This document shows, in pieces, positions 59,489 through 63,390 of a DNA stretch of 64,000 bases. The stretch is from Prochlorococcus marinus str. MIT 9201 (GTDB taxonomy: Bacteria > Cyanobacteriota > Cyanobacteriia > PCC-6307 > Cyanobiaceae). The notes beneath the pieces were generated by a model, which saw only the letters and a list, made by a program, of their open reading frames with translations, ran no database searches and was not told the origin of the DNA. Both the position numbers and the translations under genes were made by a program. The stretch spans positions 124,001 through 188,000 of the forward strand of contig NZ_JNAL01000018.1 of assembly GCF_000759955.1 (NCBI RefSeq). Reading direction: 5' to 3'. Within the stretch, counting starts at the first letter, position 1. The number at the start of each line of letters is the position of its first letter.

Positions 59489-60453
59489 TTGAGGTTAAAA
59501 AAAATAATTTTTTATTTAATGAAGAAGTCAATACCTTTCTGAGCAAAATAATTAAAAACAAATCTTTTGCTAATGGTTACATATTTTATGGTGCTGAAGG
59601 AGTAGGGAAAAAGCAAACTGCTCTTCAATTTATAAAAGATATTTTCAAACAATCTTCACAAAGCGAGAATGTTGAAGAGAAAATTACCAAAAATAACCAT
59701 CCTGATTTTCTAATTATCGAACCTGAATCTCTTTTAGCAGCTAAAAATTCAAGAAGTTCCGATCTTGAAAAAACAATTAAAAGTGGATCTGAGATTATTA
59801 AGATTGCTCAAATACGTAATATCAAAACTTTTCTTGGCCAGAAATCAATAAACTCAGAAAAAAAAATTGTTTTAATTATTGATGCACACCTCCTAAACGA
59901 GGCAGCCTCAAACTGCCTTTTAAAAACCTTAGAAGAACCTAGCAATGGCATTTTTATTTTACTAACTTCTAAACTAAATCTTCTCTTAGATACGATTATT
60001 TCAAGATGTCAAATTGTCAGATTTAGATCCTTTTCTAGTAAACAAATAGAGTCTATTTTTAACGATTATTTAGATACTTCTAAATTAAAAATTAATACGA
60101 AATTAAAATTCGAAGATTTAATAAACTCTGCAAATGGATCTCCAAATCAATTATTGAAAAATATTGAAATTTGGAATGATTTTTCAGATGAAATTATAAG
60201 TAAATTAAATTCTCCAATAAAAAATAGTCTGGAAATATTAGAAATATCTAAATTAATATCTGAAAAATTAGAAATTTATCAACAGATTTTTTTAGTCAAT
60301 TTAATTCAAACTATTTGGTGGAGAAAAACCAAAAACATCATTCTAGTTAAAAGACTTGAAAATTTAAAATATCTTTTAAAAAAAAATATTCAACCAAAGT
60401 TAGCATGGGAAACAACCTTTCTAAAAATTTCAATAGAAAATATAAGAGATTAA
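59485..60453 (+). CDS. holB: DNA polymerase III delta' subunit
   Basis: HolB is part of the clamp loader. The 322 residues have the P-loop-like [14 protein letters not shown], a middle AAA+ block ([21 protein letters not shown]) and the sensor SRCQIVRF. The C-terminal collar domain is divergent and Lys/Ile/Asn-rich. It follows tmk with overlapping codons and overlaps the convergent rpaA gene by 4 bases. Confidence 0.93.
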
Positions 60454-61232
60454 TCTAAGGCAGAATTTATCAAATCAGGATTTTTTGCTTGAATAAACTC
60501 TTGCCTTGCAGTTTCAACTTGAGAACCAATTGGTAATTCAAGGCAATATCCTGCACCATATACAGTTTTTATATATATAGGCTTACGTGGATCAGGCTCT
60601 AATTTAGTGCGTAAGTGTCTAATGTGAACTCTTATTGTTTCTATATCATCATCAGGTTCATATCCCCATACTTCTTTGAGAATTAATGATGGAGAAACAG
60701 TTTGACCATGTCTCTGCAAAAGACAGTGAAGCAATTCAAATTCAAGGTGAGTTAATCTTACAGGAGATTCAAACCAAATAGCTTCAAACCTTTCAGGAAC
60801 AAGAGTTAAAGGGCCATAGTTTAATATTTCTTGCTGGTTACTTGAATTCAATTGTGCTCTGTTGGTCCTTCTCAATAATGCTTTTATGCGTACATGCAAT
60901 TCTTCTAGATCGAATGGTTTAGTAATGTAATCATCTGCTCCAGAATTAAACCCAGTGACCTTATCTTTGAGACCACCTAATGCGGTTATCATCAAAATAG
61001 GAATATTTGATGTTCTTTCATCTCTTCTAAGTCGCTGGCATAAAGTTAATCCATCAACACTTGGCAGCATTAAGTCCAAGAGTATTAAATCTGGTGAATA
61101 TTGAAGAGCTAATGCTTGTCCTTTAATGCCATCTTCAGCTTTTTGGACATCGAAACCAGAATGTTCGAGATGTCTCGCCACCAAATCACGCATATCACGG
61201 TCGTCTTCTATTAGAAGGATTGAAATTTTCAT
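60450..61232 (-). CDS. rpaA: OmpR-family response regulator RpaA (circadian output)
   Basis: RpaA relays KaiC/SasA timing to the transcriptome in cyanobacteria. The 260 residues have a receiver with DD 10-11, phospho-Asp 53 in [11 protein letters not shown], and the winged helix [59 protein letters not shown]-like region with the following [10 protein letters not shown], characteristic of RpaA. It is on the minus strand; its 5' side faces a 402-base gene-free stretch. Confidence 0.93.
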
Positions 61233-61634: not shown

Positions 61635-61994
61635 ATGAAAAAGAAGTCTATTATCTATTCTGATTTATCAAAAAAACAACTAGAAAAACTCAAAGAGCTA
61701 TACATTCAAAAAAAAATTGAATCGATGAGTCATCAAGACCTTAAGCAATATGTACTAGAAATTATTTCTCATCAGATAAACGATACTATTGGAAAAGAAG
61801 AGGAAATGGAAGCATGGGGAGAAATGTCAGATTTTTTTGCAGATCAATTTGAAATAATTATCCTAGAAATACAAACACAATACATTGACGATAAAAACGT
61901 ACGTGAAACAGAAATAGATTCGCAAAAACAAAGAATAGAATTACTCGAAAGAAATAATACAGATCAAGAGAAAAAGGATATGTGGGATGACTAG
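61635..61994 (+). CDS. Hypothetical acidic helical protein
   Basis: The 119 residues are rich in Glu, Lys, Gln and Ile, without cysteines or membrane segments, and are likely to be largely helical (for example SKKQLEKLKELYIQKKIES and QKQRIELLERNN). I do not recognise a family. The start ATG at 61635 follows an AT-rich leader without an obvious ribosome-binding site, as is common in this genome. It is divergent from rpaA across about 400 bases. Codon use looks like the neighbours', so I take it as real. Confidence 0.7.
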   Translation: MKKKSIIYSDLSKKQLEKLKELYIQKKIESMSHQDLKQYVLEIISHQINDTIGKEEEMEAWGEMSDFFADQFEIIILEIQTQYIDDKNVRETEIDSQKQRIELLERNNTDQEKKDMWDD

Positions 61995-62101
61995 AATTTA
62001 CTGAATTGTGTAATTTAAAAGGTACAAACAAAAATATATCTTAATTTTATAGAACGAAAATCAATTAAATAATAAATTTTTTATGTGAGGAATAATTTAA
62101 T

Positions 62102-62120
62102 TGTTCTAATTACTGTTCTT
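62102..62120 (+). repeat. 19-base motif, copy 1 (TGTTCT pair)
   Basis: The sequence TGTTCTAATTACTGTTCTT has two TGTTCT half-units whose starts are exactly 12 bases apart. A near-identical copy lies 78 bases downstream. Such direct half-site pairs can be regulator-binding sites, but the factor is unknown. Confidence 0.55.
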
Positions 62121-62179
62121 AAAACAAGCAATTCTTAATTTAGTTTTTAAAATATAGTTCAATTTATATCTGTCATTAA

Positions 62180-62198
62180 TGTTCTATATACTGTTCTT
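62180..62198 (+). repeat. 19-base motif, copy 2 (TGTTCT pair)
   Basis: TGTTCTATATACTGTTCTT differs from copy 1 at two bases in the spacer only; both TGTTCT units and their 12-base spacing are kept. It lies about 24 bases before the UUCG-loop hairpin. Confidence 0.55.
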
Positions 62199-62221
62199 GT
62201 TAATGTATTAAAAATACTTGG

Positions 62222-62239
62222 GGTTATCTTCGGATAACC
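62222..62239 (+). terminator. Hairpin with UUCG loop, probable terminator
   Basis: GGTTATC at 62222-62228 and GATAACC at 62233-62239 enclose a TTCG tetraloop, an especially stable loop. ACTTTTTG follows on the plus strand, and an AT-rich tract (CCAAGTATTTTT) on the minus strand. It may end transcripts in either direction; the gene at 61635 is the nearest plus-strand candidate, 230 bases upstream. Confidence 0.6.
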
Positions 62240-62270
62240 ACTTTTTGATAAGAAAAGGGGTCATAAAATA

Positions 62271-62290
62271 GTCACCTTCATTAAGGTGAC
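62271..62290. other. Perfect 8-bp hairpin
   Basis: GTCACCTT at 62271-62278 pairs with AAGGTGAC at 62283-62290 around a CATT loop. No immediate T-run follows on the plus strand; TATTTTATG follows on the minus strand. It is one of several stems packed into 62.2-62.6 kb and may be part of a longer structured RNA. Confidence 0.5.
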
Positions 62291-62315
62291 CTTGGACAAC
62301 TTTTTAAAATGTAAA

Positions 62316-62328
62316 AACTCCCCGGGCG
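62316..62328 (-). repeat. Partial duplication of the tRNA-Asn 3' end (att-like)
   Basis: The 13 bases AACTCCCCGGGCG are identical to 63268-63280, which cover the last 11 bases of tRNA-Asn and 2 bases beyond. The match is GC-rich inside AT-rich DNA, so chance is unlikely. It is in the same orientation as the tRNA, 952 bases from it on its 3' side, the layout left by site-specific integration into a tRNA gene. No integrase is present. Confidence 0.65.
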
Positions 62329-62423
62329 AAAGATAGGCAGATCTCTCATAACCTTTTATAGACATTCATAGTCGATCAAATAATTTATATCTCATAGAAA
62401 AAACACTTAAAAACTAAAATTTT

Positions 62424-62444
62424 GATTCCTGAAGTTGCCTAAAA
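62424..62444 (-). repeat. 21-base repeat, copy 1
   Basis: This segment matches 63086-63106 at 19 of 21 positions; the core GAAGTTGCCTAAAA (plus strand, 62431-62444) is identical. On the minus strand it begins at the end of the T-tract of a terminator hairpin (62452-62475), as its sister copy lies just past another. Confidence 0.6.
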
Positions 62445-62451
62445 ATAAAAT

Positions 62452-62526
62452 AAGAGGGCATTTGTTTGCCCTCTTCGAGTCGTATGCACCTCGCTGTCCA
62501 CAAAGTCGATGAAGTGCTTTTGACTC
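62452..62526 (-). ncRNA. Candidate structured RNA with terminator (minus strand)
   Basis: Read on the minus strand, an outer stem GAGTC/GACTC (62526-62522 with 62481-62477), a 4x4 internal loop and an inner stem GCACTTC/GAGGTGC (62517-62511 with 62492-62486) form one hairpin. It is followed by a terminator stem AAGAGGGC/GCCCTCTT (62475-62452) and the T-rich tail ATTTTATTTTT. The inner stem includes a G-U pair on the minus strand that becomes an A-C clash on the plus strand, which favours minus-strand RNA. The 5' end is unknown and may lie near 62640. Confidence 0.5.
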
Positions 62527-62592
62527 CTGAATTATTTCTACTCCTACTGAATAGAAAATGATAGTCGTGACAACCACAAAGCACTAATACTC

Positions 62593-62606
62593 GGGTAGAA
62601 ATACCC
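62593..62606. other. Short hairpin with GAAA tetraloop
   Basis: GGGTA at 62593-62597 and TACCC at 62602-62606 enclose GAAA, a GNRA loop on the plus strand. It lies between the candidate minus-strand RNA and the promoter region of the 49-residue gene. It could belong to either transcript. Confidence 0.4.
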
Positions 62607-62613
62607 TATGAAT

Positions 62614-62640
62614 TTGAAGTAAAAAAGAGGACAATATAAG
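62614..62640 (+). promoter_or_regulatory. Possible promoter of the 49-residue gene
   Basis: TTGAAG at 62614-62619 and TATAAG at 62635-62640 are 15 bases apart and precede the AGGAGG ribosome site by ten bases, giving a very short leader. The spacing is on the short side for a sigma-70 promoter, so this is a tentative call. Confidence 0.35.
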
Positions 62641-62659
62641 TGTAGATACAGGAGGTCTT

Positions 62660-62809
62660 ATGAAAATCATTACTCCTTTCACTATTCTCAATCAAAACTT
62701 CCATGAAATGGATTTGATTAGAGATGCAATGAAGAGTAAAAGATTAGCAACTGAAAGATTGCATGAAGATTATAGAAAAATGTACAAAAATCATCAATTT
62801 GCCTATTGA
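62660..62809 (+). CDS. 49-residue hypothetical protein with strong ribosome-binding site
   Basis: An AGGAGG at 62650-62655, four bases before the ATG, is one of the clearest Shine-Dalgarno sites I noticed in this window. The product starts MKIITPFTILNQNFHEMD and continues as a basic, probably helical sequence (IRDAMKSKRLATERLHEDYR, then KMYKNHQFAY). There is no signal peptide, membrane helix or known motif. The stop lies within a hairpin (62801-62817) that probably ends its transcript. It is convergent with the 65-residue gene. Function unknown. Confidence 0.65.
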   Translation: MKIITPFTILNQNFHEMDLIRDAMKSKRLATERLHEDYRKMYKNHQFAY

Positions 62810-62817
62810 AAATAGGC
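62801..62817 (+). terminator. Hairpin overlapping the stop of the 49-residue gene
   Basis: GCCTATT at 62801-62807 pairs with AATAGGC at 62811-62817 around GAA; the TGA stop is 62807-62809. The following ATTCTATT is only moderately T-rich, so it may be a weak or processing-type terminator. It also separates two convergent small genes by about 11 bases. Confidence 0.5.
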
Positions 62818-62820
62818 ATT

Positions 62821-63018
62821 CTATTCACATTGCTTATTGTTCAATCTGTTGAACATACATTTGCTGTTCATGACCATTCCTTTGTAGTCGGGAAGATTTA
62901 GTTCTTTCAACCAAATAGAAATTTCCTGAGCAGCATCAGACTTTTTAGGCATATAAAAAATTACCTCTTTAGAAGGTTTTATTACTAGATAAGGAGGTAT
63001 CTTGACTGAAATTTTCAT
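62821..63018 (-). CDS. 65-residue hypothetical protein
   Basis: The frame from ATG 63018 codes for MKISVKIPPYLVIKPSKEV followed by a basic part and two cysteines near the end (SKCMFNRL, KQCE). No motif or membrane segment is seen. Upstream on its strand there is no clear ribosome site, but an AT-rich TATATT and an inverted repeat TTTTGC/GCAAAA (63044-63057) lie within 40 bases. It is convergent with the 49-residue gene and inside the interval bounded by the tRNA-derived repeats. Real but unproven. Confidence 0.5.
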   Translation of the reverse strand: MKISVKIPPYLVIKPSKEVIFYMPKKSDAAQEISIWLKELNLPDYKGMVMNSKCMFNRLNNKQCE

Positions 63019-63043
63019 AATTCAAATATATCTAATTGTTTGT

Positions 63044-63057
63044 TTTTGCAAGCAAAA
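63044..63057. promoter_or_regulatory. Inverted repeat upstream of the 65-residue gene
   Basis: TTTTGC at 63044-63049 and GCAAAA at 63052-63057 are separated by two bases. On the minus strand TTGCAA within it could serve as a -35 box, with TATATT 15 bases further on. It may be an operator over a promoter; evidence is positional only. Confidence 0.35.
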
Positions 63058-63085
63058 TATCTTGGACGTATAACCGAAAAGGATG

Positions 63086-63106
63086 GAGTCCAGAAGTTGC
63101 CTAAAA
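63086..63106 (-). repeat. 21-base repeat, copy 2
   Basis: Near-identical to 62424-62444 (two differences in 21), with the invariant core GAAGTTGCCTAAAA at 63093-63106. On the minus strand it lies about 33 bases past the stem-loop at 63139-63180. Confidence 0.6.
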
Positions 63107-63138
63107 CACATTTTTTAAAAGGCTACAACACATAAAAA

Positions 63139-63180
63139 ACACATTTTCACCCAAAAACCTGAACTACTATGAAAATGTGT
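63139..63180 (-). terminator. Long-stem terminator-like hairpin
   Basis: On the minus strand ACACATTTTCA (63180-63170) pairs with TGAAAATGTGT (63149-63139) across a 20-base loop, followed by a T-run (TTTTTTATG). The plus strand has no T-run after the stem, so function, if any, is on the minus strand. It is the second such signal after tRNA-Asn. Confidence 0.55.
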
Positions 63181-63222
63181 GATTCATGAGATATGACAAA
63201 AAGACCAGTTATGCCAATAAAA

Positions 63223-63241
63223 AAGACCCTTTTGGGGTCTT
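63223..63241 (-). terminator. Terminator of tRNA-Asn
   Basis: On the minus strand AAGACCC/GGGTCTT (63241-63235 with 63229-63223) encloses a short loop and runs into TTTTTTATT. It lies about 30 bases after the tRNA 3' end. This is a textbook intrinsic terminator. Confidence 0.8.
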
Positions 63242-63269
63242 ATGGTCATCTAATGATCTTGTAATTGAA

Positions 63270-63341
<72 letters not shown>

Positions 63342-63390
63342 ATATAAAATGAATTTAGCTCTTTAAAGTGCCTTATGACAAGTACAAGAA

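Follow-up and report, generated by a model that had tools for sequence, protein, structure and literature searches.

A 952-bp integrase-less unit beside tRNA-Asn in Prochlorococcus, probably mobilized in trans

The 952-bp segment next to tRNA-Asn in the window, the whole 64,000-nucleotide stretch of Prochlorococcus marinus str. MIT 9201 DNA analysed here, is probably an integrated, non-autonomous mobile unit that lacks an integrase and was moved in trans; we give this reading a probability of about 0.7. The layout of its ends, a core followed by tandem 11-bp repeats, is that of integrase-bearing elements of the genus. The first-pass annotation had proposed a decayed or minimal integrated element without an integrase. 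Our analysis supports that proposal and refines it: this copy looks partly decayed, with half of its right arm lost, yet minimal units may move. The features are collected in Table 1.

Table 1. Features of the unit and its surroundings, in window coordinates
Feature	Position	Strand	Basis
Response-regulator-like gene ("rpaA" in the first-pass annotation), landmark outside the unit	60450-61232	-	ORF list, site comparison
DUF7326 gene, landmark adjoining the site, outside the unit	61635-61994	+	Pfam, 3.5e-19
Ancestral tRNA flank, same as the sequence that adjoins the tRNA in empty sites	61998-62315		Site comparison
Distal core, copy of the tRNA 3' end	62316-62328		13-mer search; sequence beyond is the empty-site flank
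Right (distal) arm, single recognisable copy AAGTGTTTTTT; outer copy of L081/L147 unrecognisable here	62398-62408	-	Comparison
21-base repeat copy, distal side; likeness to G095 and G260 stops nearby	62424-62444		Repeat search, comparison
Multicopy module, p49 plus conserved ~220 bp beside it	62440-62805		Genus search, alignment
Terminator-like hairpin, end of multicopy module	62452-62475	-	By eye; kept in module alignment
p49, 49-aa ORF	62660-62809	+	ORF list
p65, 65-aa ORF	62821-63018	-	ORF list
21-base repeat copy, tRNA side of cargo	63086-63106		Repeat search
Third arm half-repeat copy ATGTGTTTT	63103-63111	-	Sequence comparison
Left (tRNA-proximal) arm, tandem 11-bp repeat ATGTGTTTTTT ATGTGTTGTAG	63123-63144	-	Sequence comparison
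Terminator-like hairpin and T-run, unit-borne, just downstream of the tRNA	63219-63242	-	By eye
Proximal core, tRNA 3' end plus one base	63268-63280		ARAGORN and 13-mer search
tRNA-Asn (GTT), intact target gene	63269-63342	-	ARAGORN; Rfam RF00005

The 13-mer AACTCCCCGGGCG occurs at both ends of the segment in the same orientation, as the first-pass annotation had reported. These two are its only matches in the window, and a search tolerating two mismatches adds none (shuffled sequence predicts 0.06). They are also its only two matches in the whole 1.67-Mb genome, both at the tRNA-Asn locus, with none for the reversed control; the 13-mer is thus not a sequence that is frequent away from tRNA genes. 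Twelve of the 13 bases of the proximal copy belong to the tRNA, given where ARAGORN places the gene. As in tRNA-integrated elements, the segment lies between direct repeats of the tRNA 3' end, and the tRNA is intact. In an Rfam scan, the tRNA alone reached the gathering score, and no other RNA family was found. The internal 21-base repeat noticed earlier is also present, its two copies being 90% identical, and neither the ORF list nor a scan with a trained model detected an integrase ORF in the segment. Could the distal core be a chance copy of the tRNA end, with no insertion at all? It is only 13 bases long. However, the 13-mer is unique to the locus, relatives have empty sites, and the same arrangement recurs in many strains, which leaves chance a negligible probability.

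We compared the window with 80 tRNA-Asn-end neighbourhoods, one per genome of the genus, giving 81 sites (in L105, the contig begins inside an array and the tRNA is out of view). Fifteen of the 81 are empty, with the window's distal flank directly after the tRNA end; this and the other proportions among sites are not population frequencies because the 80 sites were picked from the matches listed and are biased to genomes with at least two core copies. In the empty sites, this flank (tttataaattccaaaaagttatccaaagtcaccc...) reaches the DUF7326 gene within 0.55-0.72 kb, and then the response-regulator-like gene. The same flank starts exactly at the distal core copy in 16 of the 81 sites, the window included. 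Together, these two sets of sites identify the segment as an inserted unit. Another 30 sites have a second exact core and a detected flank with a different start, 16 lack an exact second core and are occupied or rearranged, and four (L119, L120, L127 and L131) were left unclassified. Among the best six matches listed for the window's flank, five are empty sites with 77-81% identity over 713-753 aligned bases, and one has 71% over 156. The suggestion that strains lacking the segment would have a single clean tRNA end is therefore borne out; collinearity of the segment does not extend to all relatives, and larger elements do lie between the same repeats elsewhere. Across the genus, an 11-mer core was found in 216 of 266 genomes, with at least two copies in 66 (counted from the tabulated matches), and the reversed control gave one match in each of 12 genomes. 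Extra core copies among the matches listed are mostly on the contig and strand of the tRNA, and some are on other contigs or strands (e.g. G057, G090 and G146).

Exact cores delimit 56 units at this site, with lengths between 169 bp and 14.6 kb. Three of them (L083_u1, L085_u1 and L134_u1) have a detected tyrosine recombinase, towards the right end, and 19 others have an AlpA-type excisionase-like gene without a recombinase. Integrase-less units are the commonest kind in this biased sample, in which the counts are not independent since units are related to one another. Units also stand in tandem: the longest array seen has four after tRNA-Asn (L138, in G160), and different arm families occur within one array. 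In most of the units printed, a terminator-like hairpin and T-run follows the core, as judged by eye; hence each insertion seemingly gives the tRNA a new terminator. Even the ten units shorter than 300 bp have repeats, with a tandem repeat of 11 or 12 bp period detected in nine and a looser one visible by eye in L141_u1. Larger units of the family have this repeat close to each end: positions 1-104 of L092_u1 match the start of L098_u1 (92%) and positions 79-180 match its end (100%), and the two matches overlap in the repeat.

The ends were analysed in the 45 units that reach 600 bp or more. In 37 of these, the best tandem repeat of the right end (11-12 bp) begins at -107 to -100, a fixed distance from the distal core. 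Near-perfect repeats, defined as 9 or 10 of 10, were found at 35 of the 45 right ends and 26 of the 45 left ends, compared with six of 180 interior windows. In 25 of the 45 units, the right arm is matched better by the unit's own left end than by any unrelated one; in eight, a few unrelated left ends (2.6-18.4%) do as well as the unit's own; and in 12, at least half of unrelated left ends equal it, such that the match between left and right is at chance level. For the window unit the match is weak, 11.9% of unrelated left ends doing as well. Its arm family is clearer in L081 and L147, the latter being a complete unit with both arms of this family, a core with one mismatch and different cargo. 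That units have matched ends and mostly lack a mobilising enzyme suggests that the enzymes of other elements move them.

Which integrases could be involved? The scan for tyrosine recombinases used a regular expression and was repeated with a model trained on seven sequences. The L083_u1 enzyme has matches at E 1e-10 in 24 of the 266 genomes, some of them fragments, and none at that threshold in the window's own genome. Among 20 integrase loci, a tandem 11/12-bp repeat upstream of the integrase was taken as an arm in 18, as judged by eye from a list whose threshold may pass chance repeats; L194 has none and L202 only an AT-rich one. Five of these loci have a tRNA-Asn-type core, exact in L188, L190 and L193 and with one mismatch in L189 and L207, and in all five the core starts 91-93 nt after the repeat, as it does in integrase-less units. 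Most of the other loci have a different core, which by eye resembles a tRNA-Ser end. Some arms are themselves common to both kinds of unit: ATGTTGGGAAT, for example, occurs in the integrase-less L133_u1 and in the integrase loci L085_u1 and L190. The ATGTGTTGG-type arm is not shared with integrase units.

For the window's own arms, the exact pattern occurs in six of the 266 genomes. No integrase with these exact arms was found, and the six genomes share no member with the 24 that have the L083_u1 family. Two candidate partners were rejected: G127:C29, which shares only cargo with L081, and a gene of 404 aa that partially matches a recombinase and lies close to tRNA-Ser(TGA) in the window's own genome, on the 5' side of that tRNA. 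A tandem repeat of the 11/12-bp type, resembling a left arm, lies ~100 bp from the 3' end of the same tRNA in this genome (L152, 7219-7431). The 404-aa gene, on the opposite side of the tRNA from this repeat, also occurs in G160, G095 and G019. In G104, an integrase locus beside tRNA-Ser(CGA) (L203) has a 12-bp repeat, TACATGTGTTTT, that is loosely like the window's arms and is a possible lead to a partner. In G022, a C-terminal fragment of an L083-type integrase lies 3.0-3.2 kb from the tRNA (L118), in what is apparently a decayed element.

The AlpA-like ORFs are 60-70 aa long and lie at the right end of the 19 integrase-less units that have them. One was put to Pfam and matched HTH_17 (8.9e-12) and Phage_AlpA (1.1e-8). 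A relative is found directly before int in L083_u1 and L085_u1; the trained-model scan found none in the window unit. Pairwise comparison of 18 AlpA-like sequences (152 pairs) gave a median dN/dS of 0.24, although divergence is large in many of the pairs and some of the branches may be older than the loss of the integrase. An alternative explanation for the tandem repeats is that they are sites of the AlpA-like protein (an excisionase site or operator) or of another regulator, and are not integrase arms; this would leave the insertion reading unchanged. The right repeat does lie directly before the start of the AlpA-like ORF (in L098_u1, the ORF spans 2503-2700 and the repeat begins at ~2702). 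However, left ends have the repeat too, as do units that lack an AlpA-like gene, and we consider this explanation somewhat unlikely.

Do units without an integrase move? An integrase-less unit of ~1 kb is present in four genomes (L074, L077, L101 and L123) with 91.6-98.6% identity, compared with 74-90% for the flank upstream of the tRNA. The boundaries of this unit fall at the cores. Beyond the distal core, the neighbouring sequences are unrelated (0.56-0.60 for the right-hand 100 bp); on the tRNA side, three copies begin at the tRNA itself and the L077 copy is behind another unit. The three copies that are exact units have no detected integrase or AlpA-like gene; the core of the L123 copy has one mismatch. 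Judged from these comparisons, the unit appears to have moved as a whole, and hence "minimal" need not mean "dead".

Units could instead have been spread by homologous recombination of chromosomal neighbourhoods, with no site-specific recombination. Several pairs are no more alike than their flanks (0.876 vs 0.917 for L072/L142; 0.82 vs 0.893 for L094/L103), and movement is therefore indicated for some families only. The window unit is 92% identical to its counterpart in G095 over positions 1-838, with the flank at 76.5%; 92% identical to that in G260 over 1-854, with the flank also at 90.5%; and 93% identical to that in G030 over 131-963, with the flank at 88.6%. The window and G030 differ in the left 130 bp. 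In G095 and G260, likeness to the window unit stops close to the distal 21-base repeat and the far end differs from there; this exchange at a repeat suggests homologous exchange inside units. As an account of how whole units spread, homologous recombination is nonetheless very improbable: the cores are where the breaks fall, and the copies of the four-genome unit have unrelated sequences past the distal core.

A more serious alternative is that the window unit is only a decayed remnant, in which an integrase-bearing element was nearly all deleted. Integrase-less units would then be immobile, and their likeness would reflect common descent. The lost half of the right arm and the lack of an integrase or AlpA-like gene in the window unit fit this explanation, as do the units shorter than 300 bp, which look like deletions between two repeats, and the decayed integrase fragment in G022. 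However, decay alone does not readily account for an integrase-less unit that four genomes share from core to core, above the identity of their flanks and in different neighbourhoods, nor for AlpA-like genes that stay open with a low dN/dS. We regard the remnant explanation as unlikely.

We therefore favour movement of the unit in trans. We propose that the tyrosine recombinase of a larger element would recognise both the tRNA-end core and the repeats, the latter serving as arm-type sites, and would join a circular form of the unit to the tRNA, leaving the tRNA whole. The arm-type repeats may be bound by the integrase or by the AlpA-like protein. Entry of more units at the same core would yield tandem arrays. 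The window unit itself is now probably stuck: it has no detected integrase or AlpA-like gene, its right arm is half lost, and no L083_u1-family integrase was found in its genome.

How do these units relate to known systems? Tycheposons, which Hackl et al. are said to have described in 2023, are reportedly tRNA-integrating elements of Prochlorococcus. They resemble the units at this site in genus, in having a tRNA target, in the tyrosine recombinase of the full elements and in variable cargo. In the available text of one account, tycheposons are 4-200 kbp long, carry a recombinase and are described for seven tRNAs (PMC10872708), in contrast to the 0.95-kb window unit without one. A tyrosine recombinase inside the element, typical of tycheposons, is absent from the window unit and present in three of the 56 units at the site. 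Additive flexible genomic islands, or tRNA gene cassettes, with partial tRNA repeats are described in the accessible parts of papers on Ca. Actinomarinales (PMC7771536) and Methylophilaceae (PMC10872708); the latter cassettes range from 330 bp to 42 kb and are mostly of unknown function. The window unit shares with these cassettes the variable cargo beside a tRNA and the partial tRNA repeat. It is the paired arm repeats and the integrase-less excisionase-like genes that set the units here apart, as these have no mention for additive cassettes in the same parts of the two papers (PMC7771536, PMC10872708).

Cis-mobilizable elements (CIMEs) have lost their integration genes, keep both att sites and form tandem accretions, according to the available text of PMC5704250. 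The window unit likewise keeps both att sites and has no integration genes, and units at its site also stand in tandem. However, CIMEs are there presented as decay products of ICEs or IMEs (PMC5704250), whereas we propose movement in trans and liken the window unit to them by its att sites and its missing integration genes. In the literature searched, in which subscription journals were thinly covered, neither paired arm repeats in tRNA cassettes that lack an integrase nor solo excisionase-like genes were found described. While tRNA cassettes and CIMEs are known, the matched-end, integrase-poor form looks like a new variety. Integron gene cassettes and MITEs are small units that rely on a recombinase encoded elsewhere. 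Units here differ from both in having a tRNA-end core and two-sided repeats, and attC or transposase-type inverted ends were not noted.

A broader proposal, for which we put the odds at about even, is that the tRNA cassettes of Prochlorococcus are mostly non-autonomous. Each would have a core, its own terminator, a family-specific pair of arms serving as a barcode and, often, a solo excisionase-like gene; rare integrases would move them in trans, shuttling defence genes and small genes in an integron-like manner. This bears on the open question of how small gene sets are reshuffled in streamlined ocean bacteria. If the matched end repeats are recombinase barcodes, the pairing of integrases with cassettes would be predictable from sequence, including for units shorter than 300 bp that would escape gene-based finders. 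The solo excisionase-like genes suggest that a unit may govern its own release with a borrowed recombinase.

Some cargo proteins of sister units look defence-related. Seven, chosen for their size and appearance, were searched with PADLOC, and each matched a model for restriction-modification, a nuclease or candidate defence; the matches comprise methyltransferases, a methyl-directed restriction enzyme, a type IIG-like protein, a helicase-type protein and nuclease-like candidates. From these seven picked proteins, turnover of phage defence may take place at the site. A restriction-like protein of ~1000-1100 aa is common to the first unit of L077, L086, the first unit of L138 and L099, and is reversed in L077. 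Dispersal of units by viruses was considered and rejected on the basis of two viral scans: 11 core-pattern matches in viral contigs show no likeness to the units, p49 has no viral match, and phage records gave none.

The cargo of the window unit was described in the first-pass annotation as only two tiny unrecognised genes. Both ORFs, p49 and p65, are present, in an ORF list that also gives other, overlapping ORFs. The description needs correcting, as p65 has relatives in 37 of the 266 genus genomes and the segment has a match in 225 of the 266. Neither protein falls convincingly into a family: no Pfam match was found for p49 and only one below the cut-off for p65; matches to PHROGs are weak for both and of unknown function. 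Seven relatives of p65 have at least 70% identity; four genomes have theirs at tRNA-Asn and three beside tRNA-Phe(GAA). The same cargo is thus found at two tRNAs, the latter three relatives being 160-300 bp from the tRNA-Phe(GAA) 3' end (L174, L175 and L176). Matches listed for the whole segment fall mostly in p49 and its ~220-bp neighbour, which together form a module present at many other places in the genus and at least twice in the window's own genome. The ~220 bp are conserved, with a mean identity of 84% over 25 aligned copies. An RNA gene is not supported here, since none of 35 predicted pairs is changed on both sides and no Rfam family matches. Contig C13 of the window's own genome (L153), probably a genomic island, repeats the p49 module together with pieces of the cargo of several units.
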